Below are positions 10,539-27,534 of a stretch of 64,000 nucleotides of DNA, one piece after another. Position 1 is the stretch's first letter; each line of letters opens with the position of its first letter. Origin of the DNA: Anaerococcus sp. Marseille-Q5996 (GTDB taxonomy: Bacteria; Bacillota; Clostridia; Tissierellales; Peptoniphilaceae); NCBI RefSeq assembly GCF_946893725.1, contig NZ_CAMPPE010000001.1, positions 186,001-250,000 on the forward strand, read 5' to 3'. The translations under genes and the position numbers were made by a program. The notes under the pieces were generated by a model that did no database searches, was not told the DNA's origin, and saw only the letters and a program-made list of their open reading frames with translations.

Positions 10539-11951
10539 ATGCCAAGTAATAATATAGAAGAAAAAATAAAAGAATTGGATCGAGGTTTTTACGACTTTAT
10601 AGACGAATTTACCTACGATAAGATAACCGAAAAAGGAATCAATGCTGATATAGTAAACGAAATCTCTCGTGAAAAAGGCGAGCCAGATTGGATGAGAATT
10701 AGAAGATTAAAATCATTAGAAATCTTTAATCAACTAGAAAATCCAACTTGGGGACCGGATTTATCAGAGTTAAATGTAGATGACATTACAGCTTATGTAA
10801 AACCAAAAACAGATAAAAAATCAAATTGGGAAGCCTTACCAGAAGAAATCAAAGCAACCTTTGATAGATTAGGTATTCCACAGGCTGAACAAGAATCCTT
10901 AGCTGGTGTTGGTGCCCAATACGACTCTGAGGAAGTATATTTTTCAATCCAAAAACACTTGGAAGACCAAGGTGTTATCTTTATGGACTTTGCAACAGCT
11001 CTAAAAGAACACGAAGACCTTGTTAAAGAATATTTCCAAAGAGCAATTCCACCAACACTTCACAAATACGCAGCCCTACACGGTGCAGTATGGTCTGGTG
11101 GATCATTAATCTATGTGCCAGAGGGAGTAAAAGTAGATATTCCTCTACAATCATATTACAGATTAAATGCTCCTGGAGCTGGACAATTTGAACACACAAT
11201 GATAATTGCAGAAGACAATGCAAAAGTACACTTTATCGAAGGATGCTCAGCACCTAGATATAACGTAGTAAACTTACACGCAGGGTCTGTAGAAATTTTC
11301 GTTGGTAAAAATGCTGAAGTAAGATTTTCAACCATAGAAAACTGGTCAAGAAATATGTATAACCTAAACACCAAACGTGCTATCGTTGATGCGGGCGGAA
11401 AAGTAATTTGGGTTTCAGGATCATTTGGATCAAAAGTTTCTATGCTTTACCCAACATCAGTTTTAGCTGGTGAAGGCGCAAGCGCAGAATACACAGGAAT
11501 TACTTTTGCAGCTGATGGACAATACATTGACAATGGTTGCTCAATGATTCACCTTGCTCCAAACACATATTCAACAGCCCTTACAAAATCAATTACAGCT
11601 GGAACTGGTAAATCAATGACTAGATCTCTAGTTCAAATGAAGAAAAATGCAAAAGGCAGTCGTTCTACAGTTGACTGTGAAAACCTAATGCTAGGCGAAA
11701 ATGCTCAATCAGATACAATTCCAGTATTAGACATTAGAAATGATGATGTAGACTGTGGTCACGAAGCTAAAATTGGTTCACTAAACCAATCACAAATATT
11801 TTATCTAATGAGCCGTGGTATTCCAGAAGATGAAGCAAAATCAATGATTGTTCGTGGATTTGCAGAACCAGTTAGCCGCGAGCTACCACTAGAATATGCA
11901 GTTGAAATGAACCGCCTAATAGATATGGAACTAGAAGGAGCAAATGGTTAA
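10539..11951 (+). CDS. sufB: Fe-S cluster scaffold SufB
   Basis: 470 residues, the standard SufB length. The beta-helix core is clear (SGGSLIYVPEGVKVDIPLQSY, EGCSAPRY, TVDCENLMLG), and the C-terminal helical domain with GIPEDEAKSMIVRGFAEP is a family signature. The Cys in GCSAP and the one in TVDCEN are candidate cluster or persulfide residues. SufB receives sulfur from SufS-SufU and builds the cluster with SufC and SufD. Its stop overlaps the sufD start by one base (TAATG), so translation is coupled. Confidence 0.97.
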   Translation: MPSNNIEEKIKELDRGFYDFIDEFTYDKITEKGINADIVNEISREKGEPDWMRIRRLKSLEIFNQLENPTWGPDLSELNVDDITAYVKPKTDKKSNWEALPEEIKATFDRLGIPQAEQESLAGVGAQYDSEEVYFSIQKHLEDQGVIFMDFATALKEHEDLVKEYFQRAIPPTLHKYAALHGAVWSGGSLIYVPEGVKVDIPLQSYYRLNAPGAGQFEHTMIIAEDNAKVHFIEGCSAPRYNVVNLHAGSVEIFVGKNAEVRFSTIENWSRNMYNLNTKRAIVDAGGKVIWVSGSFGSKVSMLYPTSVLAGEGASAEYTGITFAADGQYIDNGCSMIHLAPNTYSTALTKSITAGTGKSMTRSLVQMKKNAKGSRSTVDCENLMLGENAQSDTIPVLDIRNDDVDCGHEAKIGSLNQSQIFYLMSRGIPEDEAKSMIVRGFAEPVSRELPLEYAVEMNRLIDMELEGANG

Positions 11952-12991
11952 TGAGTAGACTAAATGAAATGAGAATGTACACTTGGAATTCCCAAGGCCT
12001 AAATTATGTAGATGCAAATCTTGGCCTAAAAGAAAAACAAGAGTACTTTAAAAATAGCGAAGGCGAATCAATTAAAGACTTAGAAGATGCTTTTAAGGCA
12101 TATGAATACGGCCTTTCTGATGAGACAAAAAAAGAAAACCAAGAATTTAGAAACTTTAGCATCTACCGTGATGTAGAGGGCAAAAAAGATTTTGAATCTA
12201 TCGATCTAAAAGTAGATGATGAAAATAATATTTTGGTAGCAGGCATTGATATTAATGCCCGCGAAAATTCAGAATCTTCATTTTTAATTTCAGCCCTAGG
12301 TGAGGGAGAAAATTTATATTTAAATTCTCAAATAAGGGTAAATGTAGCTGATAATGCAAAGGTAAAATTAGTTGTAGTTACAAATTTTGGAGAAAACTCA
12401 ACTAATTTACAATCAGTAACTACAATTGTAGGAGAAAATGCGCTTTTAGATATTTCCTATATTGAAATTGGGGCTGATTACTCAATTGTAAATATAAACA
12501 ATATCCTAGCAGGCGATAGAGCTCATGTCATAGAAGATGGAATTTACTTTAAAGAAAAAGACCAATTCCTAGACATACTTGCAAACAATGATCATTACGG
12601 CAATGAAACTGATTCTGATGCTATGTTTAATGGTGCTCTAAAAGACAGTGCCCACAAAAATTGGAAGGGTGTAGTTGATCTAAAACACGGTTGCTTTGAA
12701 GCGGATGGTAAAATTGGGGATTACTCAATGATGTTTTCAGACAATGTAAAAAATAAAACTGCTCCAATCCTTCTTTGTGCAGAAAAAGAAGTAGCGGGTA
12801 ACCACGCAGCAAGTGTTGGTAGACTAAATAAAGAAATGTTATTTTATATCATGAGCCGTGGTTTTGACAAAAAACAAGCAGAATCAATGATGCTAGAAGC
12901 AACATTCTCAAAAGCCCTTGATAAAATTGAAGATGAATCTTTAAGAGATGAACTAAAAGAAAGAGTTCATCAAATGAACACAAGGAATTAA
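11951..12991 (+). CDS. sufD: Fe-S cluster assembly protein SufD
   Basis: A 346-residue SufD, paralogous to SufB, with a divergent N-terminal half and the conserved C-terminal region (CAEKEVAGNHAASVGRLN, FYIMSRGFDKKQAESMMLEATF). The NHAASVG histidine is the conserved SufD residue that pairs with SufB at the assembly interface. It is shorter than E. coli SufD (423) because the N-terminal domain is reduced. Coupled to sufB and followed 1 base later by sufS. Confidence 0.95.
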   Translation: MSRLNEMRMYTWNSQGLNYVDANLGLKEKQEYFKNSEGESIKDLEDAFKAYEYGLSDETKKENQEFRNFSIYRDVEGKKDFESIDLKVDDENNILVAGIDINARENSESSFLISALGEGENLYLNSQIRVNVADNAKVKLVVVTNFGENSTNLQSVTTIVGENALLDISYIEIGADYSIVNINNILAGDRAHVIEDGIYFKEKDQFLDILANNDHYGNETDSDAMFNGALKDSAHKNWKGVVDLKHGCFEADGKIGDYSMMFSDNVKNKTAPILLCAEKEVAGNHAASVGRLNKEMLFYIMSRGFDKKQAESMMLEATFSKALDKIEDESLRDELKERVHQMNTRN

Positions 12992-12992
12992 A

Positions 12993-14213
12993 ATGGATAT
13001 AGAAAAAATTAGAGCTGATTTTCCTTACCTAGATAGCCAAAAAGTAGGTAAGGAAGTCATCTACCTTGATACAGGTGCAACAAGTCAAAAACCAAAACAA
13101 GTTATAGAAGCGGTTGACAAATACTATAAATATCAAAATGCCAATCCACACAGGGGAGCCCACTATTTAAGCTATGTAGCAACAGAAGCCTATGAGGGTG
13201 CGCGTGATAGAATCGCTTCATATATTGGAGCAAAAAATCGTGAAGAAGTAATTTTTACTAGAAATGCTACAGAAGCACTTAATCTAATTGCTTATTCATA
13301 TGCTATGAACAATTTAAGTGCTGGTGATGAGATTTTAATTACAATCCTAGAACACCACGCAAACCTAGTGCCTTGGCAAATGGTGGCAAAACATACGGGT
13401 GCAAAGCTAGTTTATGCATATCTAAAGGATGATTATTCCCTAGATTATGATGATTTAAAATCAAAAATCAATGAGAATACAAAAATTGTTTCATTTACAG
13501 GTGCATCAAATGTGACAAGTGAAATAATCGATGTCAAAAAAATTACTAACTGGGCCCATGAAGTTGGGGCAATAGCAGTAGTTGATGCAGCCCAACTTAT
13601 CCCTCATTTAAAAACAGATGTGACTGATTTAGATTGTGATTTTATGGTATTTTCTGGCCACAAAATGCTTGCGCCAATGGGAATTGGTGTCCTATACGGC
13701 AAAAAAGAATTGCTTGAAAACATGGATCCTTTCCTAACAGGTGGGGATATGATAGAATATGTTTACGAACAAGAGGTAACTTTTGCAGAACTTCCATACA
13801 AATTTGAGGCAGGAACTCAAGATGTTGGAGGAGTTTTGGGACTATCAGCAGCTATTGACTATATTGAAGAAATTGGCATAGATAATATTTACCAATACGA
13901 ACACGACTTAACCCGCTATGCCTATGATTTGATAAAAGATATACCAAATATCAAAATTTTCTACCCAGAGAATGCAAAAACAGGAGCTGTTTTATCATTT
14001 ACTTTTGAAGATATCCACCCACACGATATTGCATCTATCCTTGATAGTAAGGGAGTTGCAGTAAGAAGTGGCCACCACTGTGCTATGCCACTTCACAAGT
14101 ATTTAGAAGTAAGCGCTACAACTCGTGCAAGCTTTGCCTTTTATAATACCAAGAAAGAGGCAGAGATCTTTGCCAAAGAGTTACTAAATGTTAGAAAGGT
14201 AATGGGTTTATAA
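12993..14213 (+). CDS. sufS: Cysteine desulfurase SufS
   Basis: A 406-residue PLP enzyme of the class V aminotransferase fold, group II desulfurase. The PLP lysine is in SGHKML (Lys224) and the persulfide-carrying cysteine in RSGHHCAMP (Cys363). It takes sulfur from L-cysteine and hands it to SufU. RBS AAGGAA sits at the end of sufD. It lies between sufD and sufU, the usual Firmicute position. Confidence 0.97.
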   Translation: MDIEKIRADFPYLDSQKVGKEVIYLDTGATSQKPKQVIEAVDKYYKYQNANPHRGAHYLSYVATEAYEGARDRIASYIGAKNREEVIFTRNATEALNLIAYSYAMNNLSAGDEILITILEHHANLVPWQMVAKHTGAKLVYAYLKDDYSLDYDDLKSKINENTKIVSFTGASNVTSEIIDVKKITNWAHEVGAIAVVDAAQLIPHLKTDVTDLDCDFMVFSGHKMLAPMGIGVLYGKKELLENMDPFLTGGDMIEYVYEQEVTFAELPYKFEAGTQDVGGVLGLSAAIDYIEEIGIDNIYQYEHDLTRYAYDLIKDIPNIKIFYPENAKTGAVLSFTFEDIHPHDIASILDSKGVAVRSGHHCAMPLHKYLEVSATTRASFAFYNTKKEAEIFAKELLNVRKVMGL

Positions 14214-14214
14214 T

Positions 14215-14643
14215 ATGAATATGGAAGAAATTTACTCACAAATTATCCTAGATCATTCTAGAAACCAAGCCAACAAACACGAATTAAAAGATGCTGATAT
14301 AAAAGAACCTGGCCATAACCCTTCTTGTGGGGATGAGATAGTCCTAGAACTAAAAACAGATGGGGATAAGATTGTAGATGCAGCCTTTACAGGTGATGGA
14401 TGTGCTATAAGCCAGGCAGCAACAAGCGTAATGTGCGATTCGATAAGAGGCAAATCCAAGGAAGAAGCCAAAAAAATGGCAGATATTTATATAAGAATGA
14501 TTAAAAGAGAAGAAGTAAGCGATGAAGAACTAGATAGCCTAGGCGATGCAGTTGCTTTTATTAACATTCAAAATATGCCACAAAGGGTAAAATGCGCCCT
14601 ACTTTCTTGGAAAACCTTAGACCAAGTTATTAAAGATGAATAA
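14215..14643 (+). CDS. sufU: Zinc-dependent sulfurtransferase SufU
   Basis: A 142-residue IscU-fold protein. The three Cys and the Asp expected of zinc SufU are at Cys38-Gly-Asp40 (PSCGD), Cys63 (GDGCAIS) and Cys127 (RVKCALL). The insert between the second and third Cys (GKSKEEAKKMADIYIRMIKREE) distinguishes SufU from the IscU scaffold. It accepts the SufS persulfide. The start could be ATG 14215 or 14221; neither has a strong RBS, and translation is probably coupled to sufS. Confidence 0.95.
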   Translation: MNMEEIYSQIILDHSRNQANKHELKDADIKEPGHNPSCGDEIVLELKTDGDKIVDAAFTGDGCAISQAATSVMCDSIRGKSKEEAKKMADIYIRMIKREEVSDEELDSLGDAVAFINIQNMPQRVKCALLSWKTLDQVIKDE

Positions 14644-15671: not shown

Positions 15672-18188
15672 ATGGATATCAAAAAATACTCACAAGCATC
15701 GGTAGATGTTATTAATCATGCAAATAAAATTGCAATTAGATATAGCAATTCGGAAGTGTCTGACTTGCACTTACTATATGCAATTTTACAAAATCCCGAT
15801 AATCAGATTGCAGAGTTTTTAAAAGAATCAGCTGTTAATTTCCAACAACTTAAGGATGACGTGGAAAATGCTCTGACAAAACTTAGAAGTGCAAAGGGTG
15901 TGACAAATCTTTATGTCAGCAGGTCTTATCAAAAAGTTTTGTTGGTTGCTGAAGAACTTACAAGAAATCTCTTTGAAGAAAAAATTAGACTAGAACATAT
16001 TTTTCTTGCCTTATTAAAGGAGACTGAAACTACAAGTTCCAAAATTTTGGGCCAGCATAAGCTTGATTATGATGGATTTATGCAATTCGTTTCAAGAAAG
16101 TTTAATGAGCAATTTTTAAATGGTATTGCTAAAGAAACCATTGCAAATCTTGAAAAATATGGTCGAAACCTAACCAAGGAAGCTATTGAAGGAAAACTTG
16201 ACCCCGTTATTGGCAGGGATGAGGAAACTCGTAGCGCTATCCGTGTTTTATCCCGTAGGATAAAAAACAATCCGATTTTAATTGGTGAGGCGGGTGTTGG
16301 TAAAACTGCTATTGTTGAAGGGATTGTCCAAAGGATTGTCCAAGGGGATGTGCCAGACAATCTAAAAAATAGGATGGTTTTTTCACTTGATATGACATCT
16401 CTGGTAGCAGGAACAAAATATAGGGGAGATTTTGAGGATAGATTAAAGAAAATCCTTGAGGTTGTAAGGGATTCTGAAGGCAAGATTATTTTATTTATCG
16501 ATGAAATCCACAATATTATTGGTGCAGGAAATACATCAGGAACTATGGATACTGCAAATATCCTAAAACCAATGCTTGCCCGTGGTGAAATCTTAACAAT
16601 AGGTGCAACAACTATCGAAGAATACAAAAAGTATATCGAACAAGATGGAGCCCTTGATCGTAGATTCCAAAAAATAATGGTAAATGAACCAAGTGTTGAA
16701 ACATCAATCGCCATCCTGAGAGGTGTGAAAGGCAAATATGAAAAACATCATATGGTACAAATTTCGGATACTGCTTTAGTAGAAGCTGTTAAGCTTTCAA
16801 AAAGATTTTTATCCTACAGAAAACTACCAGATGTTGCCATAGATGTCATCGATGAGGCTGCGGCATTAACGCGAATGACCAAAGATCAAAAACCTGTCGA
16901 AATAGACAACTTAAACCGCGCGCTAATCCAAGCTGAAATGGAAAAAATAGCCTTAAAGGATGAAACAGACAATATATCACGTGATAGGATTGTCGAAAAA
17001 GAAACAGAGATAGAAAATTTAAAAAACTCTTTGGAAGAAAAAACCAAGTTATACGAGCTTGAAAAAGAAAGACAAGAGCAAATTTTACTTTACGAAAAAG
17101 AACTTGATGACATTTTAGCTGACATAGAAATAGCTCAAAATGAACACAACATTAGCGAATTAGACGAAAAAATCAAGTCTAAAAAATTAGTAGAAGCAAA
17201 ACTTGATAAATTAAATGACCAAGAAGCCTACTATCCACTTTCAACTAGTGTGACAAGTTCTGAAGTAAAAGAGATTATTTCTAAATTATCAGGCATGCCA
17301 AAGGTAAAACTACAACTAAATAAAATCGAAAACCTCGATCAAATCAGGTCAAATATGAAAGAAGAATTTGTAGGCAATGACAAAATGATTGATAAAATCA
17401 TAGATACCTACCTAATTTCTGAGGGTGGTTTGTTTGAAAGAAGCAAACCAATCGGTAGTTTTTTAATTGGCGGCAAGGGCGCTGGCAAAAGTTATATAGC
17501 AGAGCTAACTTCAAAATATCTTTTTGATGGGGAAACTAGTCTTTTAAGATTTGATATGGGTGAATTTACAGAAAAATCAGCCGTTACAAAACTTATTGGA
17601 GCTCCTCCAGGATATGTTGGCTATGAAGTAGGGGGCATCCTAACTGAGGCTATAAGGACAAAACCATATAGCGTAGTTGTATTTAACAATATCGAGAAGG
17701 CAAATGTTGAAATTCAAAGTCTAGTCTCACAAATTTTAAGTGCAGGCAAGTTAAAAGACAACAAGGGCCGCAATATAGATTTGAAAAATACAATGATTTT
17801 CTTAACCACTTCGGAAAATATTAATAATAATTTAGAAAATGATATATCGGGTATAACTAATGTAGTGGATTATGTTTTTTATCTAAACGAACTAGAAAAA
17901 GACTCAATTGATAAACTAATAAAAATTAATTTAAGCAAATTAGAAAATGATTTGGAAGATAATCGTATCAGCCTTAGCTATGATGATCAGTTTATAAAAA
18001 ACCTATCAGCATTTGCAATTGAATATGATATGGACATCAGAGAAATCAAGAAATTTATCGAGCAAGAAGTCTATCTAGAAATTTCTAAAAAAATATTAGA
18101 AACCAAGTCAGATAATCCATTGCAAATAACATTAGCATTTGAAGATGAAAAACTAAATCTGACAGCACAAGAAAAAAATTGGAGGTAA
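15672..18188 (+). CDS. ClpB-like AAA+ ATPase with degenerate second ATPase domain
   Basis: 838 residues. Order: Clp N-domain repeats (about 1-145), AAA1 (about 175-400), a coiled-coil middle domain of about 100 residues (about 420-522) resembling ClpB more than ClpC, and AAA2 (about 560-835). AAA1 is intact: Walker A GEAGVGKT (205-212), pore loop KYRG (249-252), Walker B ILFIDE (273-278), Arg fingers 330-331. AAA2 keeps Walker A GGKGAGKS (600-607) and pore GYVG (647-650), but the Walker B acidic pair is Asn-Asn (FNNIEKAN, 672-673), the sensor-1 Asn position reads TTSEN, and the usual PEFxNRxD arginine-finger segment is absent. AAA2 may bind but probably cannot hydrolyse ATP. RBS GGAGG at 15656-15660. 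It ends 2 bases before the TIGR00300-like pair, suggesting a dedicated partner or chaperone. It is probably not the cell's main ClpB. Confidence 0.85.
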
Positions 18189-18190
18189 AA

Positions 18191-19363
18191 ATGGCTTTTC
18201 AAGTACCAGAATATGTTTGTCCAAACTTTTCAGATGAAAAGTTTAAAAACGCACAAGATGTAAAACTAGGTAAAGTTGAAAAAGATGGTGTAGCACCAGA
18301 TAACTTTTATCTAACAACTTACATGCCAACTTACTACAAAAAAGATGGCGAATGGATCCTACCAGAACACACATCACTTAACTGTGTAGCAGTTGCTGAG
18401 GGTGATGACATAGTTATCAAAGAAATCAGAGACCTAAAATCAGGTGATGAAGTAGTTTTAAGAGGCGATGATGATGCTGAAAGCGGAATTTATGTAAACG
18501 CAGAAGGATTCCCAGAAGAAGTTTACTCAAGACCTGGAAAATCAGTAGAAACATCATTCTCAAATGACTATGACAAATTATTTGAATTAATGGAACATGA
18601 ACGTGATAGCGAAGATGGATACATAGTTTGGGTTCTAGGACCAAGTGTAGTATTCGACTATGATACAAGAAATGCTTTAAACAAACTAGCAGAAAATGGT
18701 TACATTAACTCATTACTAGCAGGTAACGCTATGTGTACTCACGACCTAGAAGGTGGATTCTTACAAACAGCATTAGGTCAAAATATTTACACACAAGTTA
18801 ACCAACCAATGGGTCACTACAACCACTTAGACTTATTAAACGAAGTAAGAGATGCTGGTTCTATCAAAGAATTTATTGCTGGTGGTAATGTAAAAGATGG
18901 TATCATCAAAACACTTTCTGATATGGATGTTCCATTTGTACTTTCAGGATCAATCAGAGATGACGGTCCACTTCCAGAAGTACACGGAGATACAGATGAT
19001 GCACTAAATGCAACAAAAGAAGAACTTGATAAAGCAACAATGGTTATTTGTATAGCAACAATGCTTCACAGCTTATCAGTTGCAAACCTAGCATCAAGCT
19101 ACAAAAAAAGAACAGATGGAACAGTTTCACCAGTTTATATGTACTCAATCGACGTTACAGAAAACGTAGTACACAAAGTAGGTGCAGCAAGAGAATACAT
19201 GGGATTTGTACCAATGGTAACAAACGTACAAGACTTTGTAGTTAACTGTGAAAAAGCATTAGTTTCTCCAGCTCAAGGAGTACTTTCTGAAGATATGGAA
19301 ATTCCAGAAACTGAACACGTACAAATAACAGGCCACAAAGAACAAAGCAAGGAGGAATTATAA
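18191..19363 (+). CDS. TIGR00300/AgrE-C-terminal-like (ornithine cyclodeaminase-like) protein, subunit A
   Basis: 390 residues matching the C-terminal nucleotide-binding region of the TIGR00300 family (archaeal ornithine cyclodeaminase, C-terminal part of cyanobacterial AgrE/ArgZ). Family motifs seen: NFYLTTYMPTY (38-48), WVLGPSVV (147-154), LLAGNAMCTHDLE (175-187, His184), GHYNHL (208-213, His209 and His212), SGSIRDDGPLPEV (252-264) and ATMLHSLSVANL (289-300, His293). It lacks the roughly 100-residue N-terminal LOR/SDH domain of the archaeal enzymes and has an acidic C-terminal tail. Start 18191 is set by GGAGG at 18181-18185; a TTG further upstream is inside that RBS. Codon use suggests high expression. 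The neighbouring lar and nickel genes make a nickel-pincer cofactor a plausible partner. The exact reaction is unknown. Confidence 0.8.
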   Translation: MAFQVPEYVCPNFSDEKFKNAQDVKLGKVEKDGVAPDNFYLTTYMPTYYKKDGEWILPEHTSLNCVAVAEGDDIVIKEIRDLKSGDEVVLRGDDDAESGIYVNAEGFPEEVYSRPGKSVETSFSNDYDKLFELMEHERDSEDGYIVWVLGPSVVFDYDTRNALNKLAENGYINSLLAGNAMCTHDLEGGFLQTALGQNIYTQVNQPMGHYNHLDLLNEVRDAGSIKEFIAGGNVKDGIIKTLSDMDVPFVLSGSIRDDGPLPEVHGDTDDALNATKEELDKATMVICIATMLHSLSVANLASSYKKRTDGTVSPVYMYSIDVTENVVHKVGAAREYMGFVPMVTNVQDFVVNCEKALVSPAQGVLSEDMEIPETEHVQITGHKEQSKEEL

Positions 19364-19364
19364 G

Positions 19365-20459
19365 ATGAAATTTGAAATGCCAAAATATCATCATCCTGAT
19401 TTCGATCAAGATTTCTTAAAAAATGCACCAAATGTTAAACTTGAAGAAGTAACAGAAGAAGGCATCAGCCCACGTAACTACCACGCATTATCAGTATTCC
19501 CAGAATACTTCAAAGTTAATGACAAATGGGTACTTGCTACAGAATCAAGAATGGATACTGTTTGTGTAGTAAATGATACACCAGGTGAAGAAAGTGTCGA
19601 CATCGTTGAATTTAGAAACCTAAAAGTAGGCGATAAAGTAGCAATCGGACGTACAGAAGATGCTTCAGAAGGTATCTATGTATGGACTCAAGGATTCTTA
19701 GAAGAAGGATCAGAAAAAGATACATTTGCTTTCCGTTCAGGTCGTTCAAGAGAAACAGCTTTCTCAATGGACTATGACAACCTATACGAAGTACTTAAAC
19801 ACGAAAAAGAAAACAACGGCTATGTAACAATAGTAGTTGGTTCTGCAATTGCCCTAGATAGAGACGCTAGGCTTGCTTTACAAAGACTAGTTGAAAATGG
19901 ATATATCAACGCAATCTTCTGTGGTACTGAAACAGCAGCATTTGACCTTGAACGTGGATTATATGGTACATCTTGGGGACAAGAACACTTTGAAAAAGAA
20001 CAAAACTCTACAAGAAACCTATACGAAACTATCAACTTAGCTCGTAAATACGGTTCAACAAAAGCATTAGTAGAATCTGGACAAGTAAAAGATGGTTTCA
20101 TCAAAGCATGTGTTGAAAATGACGTAGATTTTGTAATCGCTGGTACAATCCGTGATAGATTTGGTCTTCCAGAAACAATCAACAATGTTTATGAAGCCCA
20201 AGATGCTATGAGAGCTCACTCAAGAAAAACTTCTACAATCATCATGCTTTCAGCAATCTTATTTACAATTGCAACAGGTAATATGACTCCATCATACAAC
20301 GAATTTGATGGCGAAGTAAGACCAGTTTACATGTACACAGTAGATATCCAAGAATTCGCTGTAAACAAACTTTCTGACAGGGGTACAGTAACAGCTGTTA
20401 CTATGGTAACAAATACACAAGACTTCATCAGAAACGTAGATAGAGCTTTAAATAACTAA
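19365..20459 (+). CDS. TIGR00300/AgrE-C-terminal-like protein, divergent subunit B
   Basis: 364 residues, a clear paralogue of the upstream gene along its whole length (shared GYIN, GSIKEF/GSTKAL, VKDGxIK, PVYMY, MVTNxQDF). The positions that hold conserved His in subunit A are changed: FDLE (Phe193) replaces HDLE, the GHxxH segment reads STRNLYE (215-221), and MLHS becomes AILFT (297-301). SIRDDGPLP becomes TIRDRFGLP (261-269). It may therefore be a structural or regulatory subunit, or act on another substrate. RBS AAGGAGG lies at the end of gene A and the start is one base after its stop, so the two are coupled and probably form a hetero-oligomer. Confidence 0.8.
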   Translation: MKFEMPKYHHPDFDQDFLKNAPNVKLEEVTEEGISPRNYHALSVFPEYFKVNDKWVLATESRMDTVCVVNDTPGEESVDIVEFRNLKVGDKVAIGRTEDASEGIYVWTQGFLEEGSEKDTFAFRSGRSRETAFSMDYDNLYEVLKHEKENNGYVTIVVGSAIALDRDARLALQRLVENGYINAIFCGTETAAFDLERGLYGTSWGQEHFEKEQNSTRNLYETINLARKYGSTKALVESGQVKDGFIKACVENDVDFVIAGTIRDRFGLPETINNVYEAQDAMRAHSRKTSTIIMLSAILFTIATGNMTPSYNEFDGEVRPVYMYTVDIQEFAVNKLSDRGTVTAVTMVTNTQDFIRNVDRALNN

Positions 20460-20548
20460 AAATAATATAAGAGCAAAAGCTCGCAGAAAATAGAATAAAT
20501 AAAATATTCATACTTTATGAGTATTTTATAAATTGATTCTAATAAATT

Positions 20549-20588
20549 AGGCTGATTTTTACACTTCTTTGTAGGATCAGCCTTTTTT
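20549..20588 (+). terminator. Rho-independent terminator after the TIGR00300-like pair
   Basis: Arms AGGCTGAT (20549-20556) and ATCAGCCT (20576-20583), then a T-run. It separates the clpB-like/TIGR00300 unit from the lar unit, so the two are probably independently transcribed. Confidence 0.88.
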
Positions 20589-20622
20589 TGGATAAAAATT
20601 AGAGAATAATAAAAAATCTTTG

Positions 20623-20636
20623 TATACATATGTATA
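20623..20636. promoter_or_regulatory. Perfect 14-base palindrome upstream of larE
   Basis: TATACATATGTATA lies about 125 bases before larE and overlaps a TATAAT-like box (20633-20638). A possible operator for a nickel- or cofactor-responsive regulator; it does not look like the E. coli NikR site. No direct evidence of binding. Confidence 0.35.
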
Positions 20637-20759
20637 ATTATTAGTAAAGAACTAAGGATTATACAAAAGTCTCGTACTATGATAAAATAATATTGTAAAA
20701 TGTCAATATAGCTACAAAATTATTTTAAAGTGTGGCTTTACTTATAGAAAGGATTTTTT

Positions 20760-21635
20760 ATGGAAAAAACAGTAACAAGTATTAATGCAGAAAAAAAGGA
20801 AAAGTTAAATAGCATCATAAAAGAATTGCTAGATGAAAAATTTGTTTTAGCATTTTCTGGTGGTGTAGATAGTACACTTATCTTAAAACTAGCTTCAGAA
20901 TTAAGAGAAAATCGTGATGACGTTGTTGCAATGACTTTTGTAACAGAGTTTTCGCCTAAAGATGAGCTAGATGAATGTATAAGACTTGCAAAAGAAATGG
21001 ATGTAGAACTTCACGTTGCAAATGTAAGTATCATGGACAATGAAAAACTACTTAACAACGTAAACTACAGATGCTACCACTGTAAAGGTGGACTTTTTGA
21101 AAACTGCTTTAACTTAAAAGATGAACTTGGTTATGGATTTGTAGTTGATGGTACAAACCTAGATGACTACCAAGTATTTAGACCAGGTATCAAAGCACTA
21201 AAAGACTTGGGCGCAAGATCTCCGCTTTATGAAGCTGGACTAAGCAAGGCAGAAGTACGCGCTTATTCAAAAGAACTAGGTGTAGAAACTCACAAAAAAC
21301 CTTCAAAACCATGTATGGCAACAAGATTCCCATATAATACAAGAATTGATATAGATAAATTCCCAATGATTGAAGAAGCTGAAAACTACTTAGAAAGCTT
21401 AGGTTTTGCGGTAAATAGAGTTAGAATTTACGGAGATAACACTAGAATTGAAGTAGAAAAAGAAAAACTAGGCCAAGTTTTTGAACACGCTGAAGAAATT
21501 GTAAAGAAATTCAAAGACTTAGGATTTAAATACGTAAATATCGACTTAGAAGGCTACAGATCTGGTTCTATGGATGAAGTTGTAGATGACAATTTAAAAA
21601 CAGAAGTAAATCCATGGTTAGCTAATGAACAATAA
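20760..21635 (+). CDS. larE: Nickel-pincer cofactor biosynthesis sulfur transferase LarE
   Basis: 291 residues of the PP-loop ATP pyrophosphatase fold. The PP-loop is SGGVDST (33-39); DGTNLDD (130-136) and PCMATRFPY (Cys185) are LarE signatures. In characterised LarE the equivalent Cys donates its sulfur to the pyridinium carboxylate intermediate made by LarB, leaving dehydroalanine. This protein also has CYHC (105-108), so it may belong to LarE variants with extra cysteines that bind an Fe-S cluster and work catalytically; this is inference. RBS GAAAGGA. larB starts within its last codons (11-base overlap). Confidence 0.93.
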   Translation: MEKTVTSINAEKKEKLNSIIKELLDEKFVLAFSGGVDSTLILKLASELRENRDDVVAMTFVTEFSPKDELDECIRLAKEMDVELHVANVSIMDNEKLLNNVNYRCYHCKGGLFENCFNLKDELGYGFVVDGTNLDDYQVFRPGIKALKDLGARSPLYEAGLSKAEVRAYSKELGVETHKKPSKPCMATRFPYNTRIDIDKFPMIEEAENYLESLGFAVNRVRIYGDNTRIEVEKEKLGQVFEHAEEIVKKFKDLGFKYVNIDLEGYRSGSMDEVVDDNLKTEVNPWLANEQ

Positions 21636-22371
21636 AGAATTTTTAGAAAAAATAAAAAATAATGAAATATCTATAAATGAAGGTCTAGATTACCTAAAAG
21701 AATTTAACTATAAGGACTTAGACTTTGCAAAATTAGATTTCCAAAGAAAAGAACGCCGCGGATTTGGTGAGACAATTTTTTGTGAGGGCAAGGAGGACTT
21801 TGCCCTTGCAGAAATTTATAAATCTTTTAGCGAGCGTAAGGAATCAGTAATTGGCACAAGAGCTACTCCTAGCCAATATGAAAGAGTCCTTGAACTTGTA
21901 CCAGAAGCAAAATATGATCCAACTGGAAGGATTATTTCTCTTGTTTATGAACAGAGTCCCAAAATAGGAAATATTGCCATTTGTACAGGTGGTACTGCAG
22001 ATTTAAAGGTGGCTGAAGAAGCTAGGATAACTGCAGAATTTTTTGGTGCAAATGTTAGTAAATTTTATGATGTTGGAGTTTCAGGACTTCACAGACTAAC
22101 TTCAAAAATTGATGAAATTTCAAAGGCCAATGTAATTATTGCAATTGCAGGTATGGAAGGTGCTCTTCCAACAGTTATTGGCGGTTTGGTAAATAAACCA
22201 ATTATTGCTGTGCCAACATCTATCGGCTATGGAGCAAATTTTAAGGGTCTTTCAGCCCTACTTACCATGCTAAATACCTGTGCTGAGGGTGTCAATGTTG
22301 TAAATATAGACAATGGATATAGTGCATCCTACAATGCTTGTCAGATTAATAAATTGATTGAGGAGAAGTAA
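21625..22371 (+). CDS. larB: Nickel-pincer cofactor biosynthesis carboxylase LarB
   Basis: 248 residues. The C-terminal half (about 115-245) resembles PurE (NCAIR mutase) with CTGGTADLKVAEEA and AGMEGALPTVIGGLVNKPIIAVPTS; the N-terminus carries the LarB-specific GFGETIFCEGK. LarB carboxylates nicotinic acid adenine dinucleotide at C5 and cleaves it to the dicarboxylated mononucleotide, the first step toward the nickel-pincer nucleotide. Overlap with larE and zero-spacing to larC indicate one operon. The absence of other pur genes nearby rules out a purine role. Confidence 0.95.
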   Translation: MNNKEFLEKIKNNEISINEGLDYLKEFNYKDLDFAKLDFQRKERRGFGETIFCEGKEDFALAEIYKSFSERKESVIGTRATPSQYERVLELVPEAKYDPTGRIISLVYEQSPKIGNIAICTGGTADLKVAEEARITAEFFGANVSKFYDVGVSGLHRLTSKIDEISKANVIIAIAGMEGALPTVIGGLVNKPIIAVPTSIGYGANFKGLSALLTMLNTCAEGVNVVNIDNGYSASYNACQINKLIEEK

Positions 22372-23639
22372 ATGGATTTATATTTTGAAATGAACTCTGG
22401 AATTGCTGGGGATATGACAATTGCAGCACTTCTAGATCTTGGAGCTAGTAAGGAAAAGCTAGTTAAGGCTATCGAATCAATGGGCATAGATGGCTATGAA
22501 TTGGTTTTTGATAGAAAAATTAAAAACAATATAGATGCAAATAACTTTGATGTTATTTTATCAAATCATGACCACGACCACCATCATGATCATGATCACG
22601 ATCATAACCATGACCACACTCATGAACACGTGGATGAAAATGGCAATACTTACACACATTCCCATTCTGATGACCACCATGGCCATAGACATTTAAAAGA
22701 AATTACAGACTTAATCAACAAAGCAGATATTTCTCAAAGAGCGAAAAAAGATGCCCTTGGTATCTTTGAAATCATTGCTGATGCAGAAGCAAAAGCTCAT
22801 GGGATTGAAAAATCAGCAGTTCACTTCCATGAAGTAGGAGCGGTTGATTCAATAATTGATATTATAGGCACAGCTGTCCTAATCGATGATTTGGGAGTGG
22901 AAAATATTTATTTTTCAGATCTTAGCGAGGGTTATGGCTACCAATATTCATCTCACGGGCAAATGCCAATACCAGTGCCAGCTGTCATAAATATCCTTGC
23001 AGGTTCTAATATAAATCTAAAACTTTTGGATGAAGAAGGCGAACACGTAACTCCAACTGGTGCTGCTATTGTAAGATATTATGATAATGGCGAAAAAATC
23101 AATAGTTTTAAAGTAAAAAATGTAGGACTTGGAGCTGGCAACAAAGACTTTGCAAAATACACAAATATCTTGCGAGTAATGGAAATTGAAAGCAGTAAAA
23201 AAAAACACTAGAAATACTGGAAACTAATATAGACGATAGTACAGGAGAGATTTTGGGTTTTATAGTAGATGAATGTATGAAATACGCCCTAGACGTCTTT
23301 TATACACCAATATTTATGAAAAAAAATCGCCCAGCCTATAAGCTTTCAATTATTTGCGATTTGGAAAATGAGAAAGCCATTGAAGATTTAATTTTCAAAC
23401 ATAGCACAAGCATTGGCATAAGAAAAATTCCAATTGAAAGGGACATCCTAGATCGCAAAAAAGAATCACTCACTTATGAGGGGAGTGAGTACGATTATAA
23501 AATTGTTAGTCACAATGGCGAAGAATATGTGTATCCGGAATTTGAATCAGCTAAGGACCTTGCAATTAAAAATGACATCGGCATAAAAACTGCCTTTGAT
23601 TTGTTAAAAAAATTATATGTTAAGAAGGAAGATAAATGA
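22372..23639 (+). CDS. larC: Nickel-pincer cofactor nickel-insertion protein LarC (made by -1 frameshift)
   Basis: LarC inserts nickel into the pincer nucleotide. It is encoded in two frames. Frame 0 (22372-23211, LarC1, 279 aa) has the N-terminal EMNSGIAGDMTIAALLDLGA, a His/Asp-rich metal-binding segment (66-107) and FHEVGAVDSIIDIIG. It ends at TAG after nine A residues (23197-23205). Slipping back one base on A AAA AAA continues into ACA CTA GAA and gives LEILETNIDDSTGE, then LDVFYTPIFMKKNRP, the conserved LarC2 sequence, to the stop at 23637-23639. The fusion is about 422 aa, the full LarC length. A programmed frameshift at the same junction is known for Lactobacillus plantarum larC. The ATP-binding protein gene overlaps its end by 4 bases. 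Confidence 0.9.
23197..23211 (+). other. Predicted -1 ribosomal frameshift site in larC
   Basis: Nine consecutive A (23197-23205) read as AAA AAA AAA, followed by CAC TAG in frame 0. The heptamer A AAA AAA at 23199-23205 lets two Lys-tRNAs slip back one base, entering the frame that encodes LarC2. I see no obvious strong downstream stem-loop. A sequencing error in the homopolymer is the main alternative. Confidence 0.75.
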
Positions 23640-24865
23640 AGTATTTCAAAGCATTATTACTATCTTTAATACTAATTTTAGCTGGATGTACAAACAATCA
23701 AGAAGCAAAAACTGATGAAAATACATCCACAGAAACAAAAGTAGAAGAAAATACAAGTGAGAAAGAAAAAACTGAGCTTTCTGAAAATAAAAAAGAAGAC
23801 TTAAATAGTGAAGAAAAAACGGGTGGCAAAATAGTTGTAAGAGACCTAGATGGCAATGAAATTACTTTAGACAAGCCACTTGAAAAAGTAATTATCCAAG
23901 GCTCATCATCAGGTGGTCCATTTATGACAATGATGTATTTGGATAAGGATAATTTCCTATCAAAAATCGCAGCCATGGATGATAGTGTAAAACTTGATAG
24001 AAACGATTTCTATACTCGTTTAGCACAAGTAATGCCAGAAATCGAAGATGTGCCACGTATTGCAAACTTCATGGATAACGATTTTTCTTATGAAGCTATC
24101 CTAAATACAGATGCTGATGGGATAATTGCACCAATCGGATTTAAAAGCCAAATTGAAGCAATCCAAGAAAAAATCGACATCCCAGTATTTTATGTGGACT
24201 ATCATTCACAAGAGTTTGATAAGCACATTGCTTCAACAAAATTGATTGCCCAAGTAACTGGACTTGATAAAAATTTGGATGAACTTATTGATTTTTACAC
24301 ATCAAAAGTAAGTCCAATCTTAGATAAAAAGTTTGAAGAAGATCAAAAACCAAAAGTTTATGTAGAACATGGTTACGAGGGTGAAAAAGAGTACGGAAAC
24401 TCTTATGGATCTAACAAAATGTGGGGCAAAATAATAGAAGATTGTGGTGGCCACAATATAGGTTCAGATGCTCTAGGATCTGATGAAGCAATCCCTTTAT
24501 CAAGTGAATTTGTTTTATCTGAAGATCCAGAAAAAATTATCCTAACAGGATCCCAATGGATAGAAAAACCACATTCTATGAAAATGGGCTATGACACAAG
24601 TACAGATCAAGTAAAAGAAAAAATTGATCTTTATAATTCTCGCTCAGGCTGGTCAGACTTAGAAGCTATGAGAAATAAAGAAATTTATGTTATTAGCCAA
24701 CAGCTAGTACGTGATATGAGTGACTTTTATTCATATGAATATATAGCAAAGACCCTACATCCAGAAGAGTATAAGGATTTAGATCCAGAAAAAGATTTTG
24801 AAGAGTTTTACCAAAAATTTATGCCAATTGGCTTAGAAGGAACTTGGTCATATAAATATGAATAG
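23636..24865 (+). CDS. ABC transporter substrate-binding lipoprotein, probably for nickel or nickel chelate
   Basis: 409 residues with a lipoprotein signal peptide (LILILAGC, lipid Cys18), a charged Glu/Lys/Thr-rich linker (about 20-60) and a BtuF/FepB-type periplasmic-binding fold (VVRDLDGNEITLDKPLEKVII start). This family carries vitamin B12, siderophores, haem or nickel. Its start overlaps the larC stop by 4 bases, and it is the first of a three-gene importer, so nickel is the most likely cargo. Lipid anchoring places it outside the cytoplasmic membrane. Confidence 0.85.
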   Translation: MKYFKALLLSLILILAGCTNNQEAKTDENTSTETKVEENTSEKEKTELSENKKEDLNSEEKTGGKIVVRDLDGNEITLDKPLEKVIIQGSSSGGPFMTMMYLDKDNFLSKIAAMDDSVKLDRNDFYTRLAQVMPEIEDVPRIANFMDNDFSYEAILNTDADGIIAPIGFKSQIEAIQEKIDIPVFYVDYHSQEFDKHIASTKLIAQVTGLDKNLDELIDFYTSKVSPILDKKFEEDQKPKVYVEHGYEGEKEYGNSYGSNKMWGKIIEDCGGHNIGSDALGSDEAIPLSSEFVLSEDPEKIILTGSQWIEKPHSMKMGYDTSTDQVKEKIDLYNSRSGWSDLEAMRNKEIYVISQQLVRDMSDFYSYEYIAKTLHPEEYKDLDPEKDFEEFYQKFMPIGLEGTWSYKYE

Positions 24866-25817
24866 AAATAAAAAAATAATTATTTCTACAATTTTATTAA
24901 TAATCGCTGGTATAATTGATTTATTTATCGGTGATAGCAAAATTGCCCTTAGCGATTTGTCAAATCTAAGTCAGATTCAAAGAACAATTTTATTTGATAT
25001 CCGCTTGCCTGAAGTAGCAACAGCAGGAATAGTTGGCTTGTCTTTGGGACTTGGTGGGGCAATTATGCAAACAATTTTAAATAATCCTCTGGCAGATCCC
25101 TTTACTCTAGGAATCTCATCAGCGGCAGGATTTGGTGCAAGCCTATTTTTGATTTTAGGCTTGTCACTTTCCTATGTTGCCTTTGGATCTATCATATTTT
25201 CACTAGTGTCCATGTTTTTTGTTTTTTACATATCAAAAAAGAAATCCATGAATACCGAAGATATGATCTTGGCAGGGATTGCTGTCAAATTCTTTTTTGA
25301 CTCACTGACCTCGCTTTTGCAATATTTAGCAACCGATGAAGCCCTAGCATCCATTGTTTTTTGGCTATTTGGCAATGTTACAAAAACTACTAGCAAAGAA
25401 ATTTTTATAATTTTAAGTGTTTTTCTAATTATAGTATTCTTTGCCCTAAAAGATGCCTGGAAGCTTACAGCCATGCGTTTTGGTGAGGACAGAGCAAGGG
25501 CTATGGGCGTTGATACAAAATTGCTAAAGATAAAAACTTTTATTTTAGTTTCGATTCTTGCCGCAGTTTCTGTATCCTATGTTGGAATTATTGGTTTTAT
25601 CGGGATTTTGGCCCCACATTTTGCAAGAAGAATGGTGGGAGAAGACCAAAGATATTATCTAATTTTATCTGCAATTATCGGAGGAATTCTTTTAGTAATT
25701 TCATCTATGGTTACTAAAATGATAAAACCTGGAGTTGTTGTGCCAATTGGCATTATCTCATCGCTTATAGGACTTCCACTAATATTTGTAATGCTTTTTG
25801 GAGTCAAAAATGATTGA
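24858..25817 (+). CDS. FecCD-family ABC transporter permease, probably nickel
   Basis: 319 residues with about nine to ten membrane helices. RLPEVATAGIVGLSLGLGGAIMQTILNNPLADPFTLGISSAAGFGA is the FecCD permease hallmark, and GFIGILAPHFARRMVG is the cytoplasmic coupling helix that contacts the ATPase. It overlaps the binding-protein gene by 8 bases and belongs to the same operon. Substrate assigned only by context with larEBC. Confidence 0.9.
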   Translation: MNRNKKIIISTILLIIAGIIDLFIGDSKIALSDLSNLSQIQRTILFDIRLPEVATAGIVGLSLGLGGAIMQTILNNPLADPFTLGISSAAGFGASLFLILGLSLSYVAFGSIIFSLVSMFFVFYISKKKSMNTEDMILAGIAVKFFFDSLTSLLQYLATDEALASIVFWLFGNVTKTTSKEIFIILSVFLIIVFFALKDAWKLTAMRFGEDRARAMGVDTKLLKIKTFILVSILAAVSVSYVGIIGFIGILAPHFARRMVGEDQRYYLILSAIIGGILLVISSMVTKMIKPGVVVPIGIISSLIGLPLIFVMLFGVKND

Positions 25818-26541
25818 TATAAAAAACCTTACAATAAACTATGAAAAAAATGTAATAGATGATATTAGTTTTTTTGCAGGTCCAGGCAAAGTCCACGTTC
25901 TTATGGGACGAAATGGTGCTGGAAAGTCCTCAATTTTAAATGCAATTAGCGGCTTGATAAATTACCATGGAGACATAAAAACAGATGGCAAAATCTCATA
26001 TCTAAATCAAAATGTAAATACAAAAGTGAACTTTACCGTTTTTGAAACTATAATTTTGGGTAAAGTAAAAAGTCTTAATTTTAAACTAAGCGATCAAGAC
26101 ATAATGGATACCTATGAAATAATGGACCTACTAAATCTTAGAAAATTTGAAAATAAGAAAATTTCAAAAATGAGTGGGGGTGAAGTCCAAAAAGTCCTCA
26201 TTGCCCAAGCCCTAATTAGCAAACCAGATATTTTATTGTTAGATGAACCAGTAAGTGCCCTTGATTTGCATAACCAATACGAAATACTAGCTATAATAAA
26301 AAATCTAACCCAAAAACTAAATCTTACAACCCTCATCACCCTCCACCAAATGGAATTAATCGAAAGATACGCTGATAATATAATTTTGATAAATGATAAT
26401 AAAATTTATGGAGTAGGCGATAAATACCAAATATTCACAAAAGAAATGTTTGATGAGGTATACAACATAGATGCTAACATAAAAAAGATGGATGACAGCT
26501 TGTTGTTTTTATTTAATATGAATAATAATCAACAATTTTAA
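25810..26541 (+). CDS. ABC transporter ATP-binding protein, probably nickel importer
   Basis: 243 residues: Walker A GRNGAGKSS (about 34-42), signature MSGGEVQKV (about 121-129), Walker B ILLLDEPVSALD and H-loop LITLHQ. It matches FepC/BtuD-type importer ATPases. The ATG at 25810 is chosen because GGAG at 25800-25803 precedes it; a TTG at 25798 lies in the RBS. It overlaps the permease gene by 8 bases and closes the lar-transport operon. No clear terminator is seen before the next gene. Confidence 0.92.
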   Translation: MIDIKNLTINYEKNVIDDISFFAGPGKVHVLMGRNGAGKSSILNAISGLINYHGDIKTDGKISYLNQNVNTKVNFTVFETIILGKVKSLNFKLSDQDIMDTYEIMDLLNLRKFENKKISKMSGGEVQKVLIAQALISKPDILLLDEPVSALDLHNQYEILAIIKNLTQKLNLTTLITLHQMELIERYADNIILINDNKIYGVGDKYQIFTKEMFDEVYNIDANIKKMDDSLLFLFNMNNNQQF

Positions 26542-26595: not shown

Positions 26596-27534
26596 ATGAC
26601 AGAAAAAACAAAAAAACGTGACTATAACAAACTTGCCAAATTGGGCTTGCTTATTACAGCCATTCTTTGGGGAAGTTCACTGACAGTAGTAAAGGGAGCA
26701 ACAGATACTTTTAATCCAAACTTTATCCTTATGGTTAGGTTTGCTATTTCAGCAATATTACTTGCAATTATATTTAACAAAAAAGTTAGAAAAGCAACAA
26801 AAGATGACCTCAAAGCTGGATTTATAGTAGGATTTTTCTTATTTATTGCTTATTCATCTCAAACACTAGGTGTTACATACGCAGATCCAGGAAGAAGTGC
26901 CTTTCTTTCCGCATCCTATTGTGTAATAGTACCGTTCTTATCTTGGGCAATTACTAAACATAGACCTGATAAATATAATATGTGGGCAGCAGCCATTGCC
27001 ATTGTAGGTATTTATCTAATTTCTAAATCAGGAGTAGAAAAGGGAACATCAATATTTAACGCAAGCAAAGAAATGCTATTAGGTGATGGACTTGCCTTAC
27101 TAAGTGGTATCCTATTTGCAGCACATATAGTAGCAGTAAAATTGTTTACAAAAGGAAAAGACCCAATAGTAATGACTATTTTCCAATTTACATCAGCAGC
27201 AATTCTATCTGCAATAGTGACATTATTCTTTGAAGATAACTCAAATATGGTAATTAATTCTTCAAGACCAATTCTTGAACTTTTATACCTAGCTATCTTC
27301 TGTACAACAGTAGCACTATTACTACAAAACATTGGACAAAAATACACAGACGAATCCTCAGCAGCAATTATTCTAGGATTTGAATCAGTATTTGGAATTC
27401 TAATCCCAGTAATGCTAGGAATTGAAAGTCTAACACCAATGTCAATTGTAGGATTTGTTCTAATGTTTGCAGCAATAATGATTTCAGAAACTAAATTATC
27501 ATTCCTAAACAAAGACAAAGCTCCATCGGCTTAA
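26596..27534 (+). CDS. EamA/DMT-family transporter
   Basis: 312 residues with about ten membrane helices arranged as two EamA repeats. The first repeat begins ITAILWGSSLTVVKGA, the second GDGLALLSGILFAAHIVAVKLFTKG; SAAIILGFESVFGILIPVMLG is typical of the second half. DMT proteins export amino acids or other small metabolites; the substrate cannot be read. RBS TAGGAGGAA precedes the ATG. It follows the nickel importer by 54 bases but looks functionally separate. Confidence 0.88.
   Translation: MTEKTKKRDYNKLAKLGLLITAILWGSSLTVVKGATDTFNPNFILMVRFAISAILLAIIFNKKVRKATKDDLKAGFIVGFFLFIAYSSQTLGVTYADPGRSAFLSASYCVIVPFLSWAITKHRPDKYNMWAAAIAIVGIYLISKSGVEKGTSIFNASKEMLLGDGLALLSGILFAAHIVAVKLFTKGKDPIVMTIFQFTSAAILSAIVTLFFEDNSNMVINSSRPILELLYLAIFCTTVALLLQNIGQKYTDESSAAIILGFESVFGILIPVMLGIESLTPMSIVGFVLMFAAIMISETKLSFLNKDKAPSA

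Follow-up and report, generated by a model that had tools for sequence, protein, structure and literature searches.

A split, putatively heteromeric variant of a putative nickel-pincer ornithine cyclodeaminase family in Anaerococcus

Gene order at the locus and family membership of the pair

The window analysed here is a stretch of 64,000 nucleotides from the genome of Anaerococcus sp. Marseille-Q5996, and the subject of this work is a pair of adjacent, paralogous genes within it, whose products are referred to as subunits A and B, together with the nickel-pincer nucleotide (NPN) synthesis genes larE, larB and larC that follow them. All features described below are on the forward strand. A ClpB-like double-AAA+ ATPase of 838 amino acids (15672..18188), subunit A (390 amino acids, 18191..19363, with its ATG start at 18191) and subunit B (364 amino acids, 19365..20459) form a first unit. 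This unit is divided from the lar unit by a probable intrinsic terminator at 20549..20589 (RNA fold of -15.5 kcal/mol, z -3.95, then T7), a hairpin that was missed by a pattern scan because its loop is too long, and that was found by folding. The second unit consists of larE, encoding the sacrificial sulfur transferase (20760..21635); larB, encoding the pyridinium carboxylase/hydrolase (21625..22371); larC in two parts, the first of which (LarC1, 22372..23211) ends after an A9 run while the second (LarC2, 23208..23639) lies in the -1 frame; and a FecCD/Peripla_BP_2-type ATP-binding cassette (ABC) importer, putatively for a metal or metal chelate, made up of a substrate-binding lipoprotein (23636..24865; PF01497), a FecCD-type permease (24858..25817; PF01032) and an ABC ATPase (25798..26541; PF00005). 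An EamA/DMT-type transporter (26596..27534) is likely the final gene of the lar unit.

In profile searches, LarE (TIGR00268, 281.6 bits, cut-off 150), LarB (NF033503, 283.3 bits, cut-off 175), LarC1 (TIGR00299, 189.8 bits, cut-off 90) and LarC2 (NF052512, 98.3 bits, cut-off 50) all scored above their curated cut-offs. The profile matches confirmed that the ClpB-like ATPase, the two TIGR00300-like paralogues, larE, larB, larC and the three-gene importer lie where the original prediction had placed them. Its statement that the window has no larA was also borne out, as LarA (PF09861, Lar_N) had no match anywhere in this near-complete genome (G000, 99.75% complete). No second copy of the A/B family was found in the same genome, and a search for riboswitches or known RNAs upstream gave no Rfam match up to an E value of 0.5. 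The gene order is identical in Anaerococcus sp. mt242 (L129), the A protein of which is 96% identical, and the arrangement is therefore not an accident of assembly.

Family names were taken from NCBIfam 20.0, in which TIGR00300 is called 'ornithine cyclodeaminase, nickel-pincer nucleotide-dependent' and NF052526 'putative NPN-dependent ornithine cyclodeaminase'. An annotation link between this family and the pincer cofactor, which the original prediction had raised, is thus real; it is already contained in the NCBIfam naming and is not new here, whereas the split into A and B appears to be new. B scores above the NF052526 cut-off of 440 bits (464.5 bits) and A just under it (436.4 bits), single-gene members reaching 590-620 bits (621 in Peptacetobacter hominis). 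Both subunits are under the TIGR00300 cut-off (193.2 and 193.7 bits vs 410.8 bits). Over their length, A and B share about 48-50% identity with the single-gene NF052526 proteins. The latter have the same kinds of partners (larBCE, an importer and EamA), but they hold every ancestral conserved residue in one gene, whereas in the window these residues are divided over two. TIGR00300 proteins, the C-terminal domains of AgrE and ArgZ, and MMP1218 (6lrg, 6juy, 3c2q) share the fold of A and B (Z 29-36) at about 30% identity; they have the conserved positions of the A/B family and are homomeric. A and B can be described as a split, putatively heteromeric variant of a recently named and still putative enzyme family. 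No paper showing a nickel-pincer ornithine cyclodeaminase, or the substrate of any NF052526 member, was found in the open-access literature.

Complementary loss of conserved residues in A and B

The sequences of 53 A/B pairs were aligned with those of 58 single-gene NF052526-type proteins, 32 TIGR00300 homologues and three proteins of known structure. The test columns were the 44 that are invariant in both homomeric groups (the 32 TIGR00300 homologues and the 58 single-gene proteins); the column of ArgZ 102 was disregarded as it is shifted in this large alignment. The single-gene relatives (58/58) keep essentially all ancestral conserved residues, and the full set is present in neither A nor B alone, only in their union. 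A departs from the invariant residue at 14 columns and B at 21, with a single column common to both when 6.7 would be expected (p = 0.0002; Spearman -0.56). As an earlier test of the overlap, in which losses were called more loosely, gave p values of 0.04-0.2, and the stricter, larger alignment 0.0002, the strength of this p value depends on the choice of columns.

Across the 53 pairs, A has lost the MD, FF, AG and LxDxG (LxDRG) residues, of which MD, FF and LxDRG are 100% kept in B. B in turn has lost a P, NA, H, L, G, H and DGP as well as a further H; its lost motifs are GNA, HD, GxxxH and RDDGP. In the window, A retains the middle block (H184, H212, D258, G259, P260 and H293, numbered from the ATG at 18191), and B retains the end blocks (M63, D64, F121, F123, G305, L336, D338 and G340). 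The suggestion that the pair keeps several histidines that could bind metal consequently holds for A but not for B, in which the conserved histidines are lost.

In the tree, all 53 A sequences form one clade and all 53 B sequences another (support 1.0 for each), both nested among the single-gene relatives, so that one duplication explains all pairs. The single-gene enzyme occurs across Clostridia, and the pairs are distributed over Peptoniphilaceae, cold-adapted Clostridium species, a few other Clostridia and one Treponema bin. Because A and B are strictly complementary halves of the invariant set and are always adjacent, they would hardly function apart, and the heteromer that the original prediction had proposed is strongly implied by this complementary loss. 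On balance, we lean towards the reading that A and B act as an obligate heteromer sharing a single composite active site, derived from a homomeric NPN-type ornithine cyclodeaminase, and that this heteromer is a putative nickel-pincer enzyme.

Cofactor and substrate of the putative enzyme

LarB, LarE and LarC make NPN from nicotinate adenine dinucleotide, with nickel probably supplied by the FecCD-type importer. The synthesis genes, including the split larC, are the same as those that accompany LarA, but LarA belongs to an unrelated family and is absent from the genome of the window. About 15% of surveyed genomes carry larBCE without larA, and in December 2024 the cofactor user in larA-less cyanobacteria had yet to be identified (PMC11796402). 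For the role of cofactor user in larA-less genomes, the NF052526/TIGR00300 family is a strong candidate. The split pair offers a sharp test of this, as each half is expected to be inactive by itself, and the two to be active only when combined and supplied with LarBCE. Should the family use NPN, nickel-pincer chemistry would reach beyond hydroxy-acid racemases into the amino-acid catabolism of anaerobes.

Associations were tested at the genome and genus levels in 100 genomes of the window's family. LarB was present in 22/30 genomes with the pair or its single-gene version vs 17/70 others (Fisher p = 1.1e-5), and the genus-level association with larB gave p = 0.003; the co-occurrence check that had been proposed for this locus thus found that the pair tracks larB and larC in the family. 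Pairs linked to the ClpB-like gene (clade I) were accompanied by LarB and LarC in 14/14 cases, and the window's genome also has larB; larB occurs in 14/14 clade-I pair genomes vs 25/86 other genomes (p = 3e-7, without correction for phylogeny). Within genus g1, lar genes are found in 3/3 genomes with the pair and 0/5 without it. Both genomes of genus g32 carry larB and larC, one with the single-gene enzyme and no LarA, the other with LarA but without the single-gene enzyme. Peptacetobacter hominis, Faecalimonas and Suipraeoptans each have one apparent operon in which the gene of the single-gene enzyme is followed without interruption by an EamA gene, a 136-amino-acid open reading frame (ORF), a NikA-type ABC importer, larB, larC and larE (at one such locus, L200, the ORF caller took an opposite-strand ORF over the EamA gene, which tblastn locates there). 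The EamA protein of the window is 41% identical to its counterpart in the operon of Peptacetobacter hominis, where the EamA gene lies directly 3' of that of the single-gene enzyme. Beyond these three larBCE operons, no conserved neighbourhood of single-gene enzymes was found. Among control genomes, those of M. jannaschii and H. volcanii encode TIGR00300 along with LarB but no LarA. Four further loci (L062 and L066 in G042 and G063, L054 in G004, L059 in G033) have larEBC and a dipeptide/nickel-type ABC importer at most 20 kb from the pair cluster; in G042 and G063 a small membrane protein and a methyltransferase lie in between.

Several findings weigh against NPN as the cofactor of A and B. 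The pair occurs without larB or larC in five genomes of genus g22 (99% completeness) and in two of g27. In a phylum sample of 398 genomes, LarB is found in only 10/40 TIGR00300 carriers, below the background of 217/398, and LarA-type genes in 34/40 of these carriers. AgrE was crystallised with ornithine and nicotinamide adenine dinucleotide (NAD+; 6lrg), so the fold can hold NAD+. Finally, the association tests are not phylogenetically corrected beyond the genus level. Given the larB/larC-less pairs and TIGR00300 carriers and the AgrE-NAD+ structure, we do not take NPN use by A and B as established, and occupancy of the heteromer by NPN is inferred. The proposal that the pair is the client of larBCE is favoured by the co-occurrence in the family and by the single-gene operons, but it is weakened by the carriers without larB and larC, which have either another route of cofactor supply or another cofactor in use.

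A and B might thus be a heteromeric ornithine cyclodeaminase with tightly bound NAD+, the larEBC genes serving some other, unrecognised client. This would agree with the AgrE structure with NAD+ and ornithine, with the pairs of g22 and g27, and with the absence of larB and larC from most TIGR00300 genomes of the phylum sample. Other clients probably exist, since genus g3 has LarB and LarC but neither LarA nor the TIGR00300/NF052526 family. However, in three genera larBCE and the genes of a NikA-type importer are contiguous with the single-gene enzyme, the pair and larB/larC are co-distributed in the family, and the curated NCBIfam name is NPN-dependent; we therefore consider the NAD+ alternative doubtful.

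Two groups of genomes are worth describing in this connection. In genus g3 of the window's family (8 genomes; L044, L045, L126, L127), LarB is present in 8/8 and LarC in 7/8, with LarE and LarC adjacent and LarB elsewhere; neither LarA nor the TIGR00300/NF052526 family was found in these eight genomes, and a further cofactor user is likely. In the phylum sample, G120, G147, G163, G221 and their relatives (L108-L113, L209-L218) carry several LarA-type genes plus TIGR00300 and no LarB or LarC, the single-contig genome G120 having seven LarA-type genes. Such genomes either obtain NPN by a different route or have LarA-type proteins that work without it.

The neighbours of the pairs point to ornithine catabolism, from which the substrate is deduced. 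Ornithine carbamoyltransferase is encoded in 13/13 clade-I clusters outside the window and carbamate kinase in most of them, together with an AgcS carrier, a CD0519/CD1768-family membrane protein, an AraC-type regulator and the ClpB-like ATPase. In the window's genome, ornithine carbamoyltransferase, carbamate kinase, AgcS and an AraC-type regulator form a separate cluster 160 kb away (L119, G000:C1:34000-53900). In the proposed pathway, citrulline would be converted to ornithine by ornithine carbamoyltransferase, with carbamate kinase making ATP. A hydride would then pass from C-alpha of ornithine to the cofactor (hidden redox), the resulting imine would cyclise with loss of ammonia, and the hydride would return to give proline. 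A point against this pathway is that no arginine deiminase was found in the window's genome, so that citrulline would need to be imported or to come from another source. This, and the lack of any paper found on the substrate of an NF052526 member, could mean that the pair has shifted to another substrate or reaction, e.g., another diamino acid. Such a shift seems unlikely to us, since clade-I clusters carry ornithine carbamoyltransferase and carbamate kinase, and the residue sets match those of ornithine cyclodeaminases of known structure.

The proposed composite site, the ClpB-like ATPase and larC

Monomer models of A (mean pLDDT, predicted local distance difference test, of 85; Z 35.8 to 3c2q) and B (mean pLDDT 80; Foldseek E 4e-32 to 3c2q) have the expected fold. 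In B, segments 114-135 and 328-342, which carry the invariant FF and LxDRG residues, have pLDDT values under 50 in a monomer model built from an alignment of only 19 sequences; these low values would fit segments that are ordered only by a partner or the cofactor. Outside the family, the closest fold is that of deoxyhypusine synthase (Z of about 16 over about 219 residues), a likeness of fold only. Its active sites are built from two protomers (PMC7581365; PMC7432094), and in trypanosomes an impaired and a dead paralogue of it gain about 3000-fold activity together (PMC3663545). By analogy, the ancestor of A and B probably had active sites to each of which two identical protomers contributed. 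Following a single duplication, A would have kept one side of the site (the GNAxxxHDxE, GxxxH, SIRDDGPLP and LH motifs) and B the other (MD, FF, AGN and KLxDRG), so that each A-B pair may have a working site and a dead one, like the trypanosome pair. The trypanosomatid DHSc/DHSp heterotetramer (6dft) resembles A/B in this reading in its duplication, key-residue loss, hydride-transfer chemistry and Rossmann-type domain, with one functional and one dead site in each heterodimer. It differs in catalysing a spermidine to eIF5A reaction, in being eukaryotic and in using NAD+, and it belongs to another family (about 8% identity). Two gene copies dividing one site is thus a pattern seen in a related fold. 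That the site of A/B lies at the interface is drawn from this remote relative, which weighs against the composite-site reading.

A classical prozyme, i.e., one catalytic subunit with a regulatory or structural dead paralogue and no shared site, would agree with the retention of both conserved histidines and the RDDGP motif in A, and with the activation by DHSp of a paralogue having limited activity of its own (PMC3663545), but it is improbable: MD, FF and LxDRG, which every homomer keeps, are gone from A as well, and these are exactly the residues that B has at 100%. A strictly complementary set is not normally preserved by dead paralogues.

The ATPase is ClpB-like rather than ClpB, as its 773 bits to TIGR03346 are below the cut-off of 1232. 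It shares the domain order and the D1 motifs of ClpB (Walker A and B, Arg finger and pore loop are intact), but its D2 Walker B motif is degenerate (VVVFNN) and it travels with this catabolic cluster. Among 28 homologues, the D1 motifs are intact in nearly all, and the catalytic Glu of the D2 Walker B motif is lost in most Peptoniphilaceae-type copies and kept in others. D2 is decaying in the ATPase of the window and in homologues (L133, L134), and Walker A is lost as well in two. All clade-I pairs have the gene at a distance of about 10 kb or less, and clade-II pairs do not, so that the idea of a dedicated remodelling ATPase, which had been put forward for this pair, is weakened by its tracking only one clade. 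A role in assembling or reactivating the A/B enzyme is a guess. It is conceivable, but we would put little weight on it, that A and B evolved, independently but along the route of trypanosome deoxyhypusine synthase, into a nickel-pincer heteromer in which every heterodimer has a single composite site, and that in one clade an AAA+ ATPase derived from ClpB is dedicated to this enzyme, either assembling it or clearing away damaged nickel cofactor. An anti-phage role for the ClpB-like gene was considered and set aside, the only matches being weak ones to candidate models, in the C-terminal half.

The larC gene of the window is split over two frames at the A9 run near 23200, in the stretch 23190-23211 (slippage at about 23197-23205). 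Split LarC is found as well in L129, G083, G090, G036 and G045, and because the split is common to related species, the frame change is likely programmed slippage and not an error. Programmed slippage in larC is known for Lactiplantibacillus plantarum. In G008, G077, G066 (L124, L125, L128) and G039, which are genomes without LarB, LarC1-like and short LarC2-like genes are present in reversed order or duplicated. Directly upstream of the locus, the window carries sufB, sufD, sufS and sufU-like iron-sulfur assembly genes (10539-14643), and its LarE has three Cys residues that, by eye, are placed as in the 4Fe-4S type.

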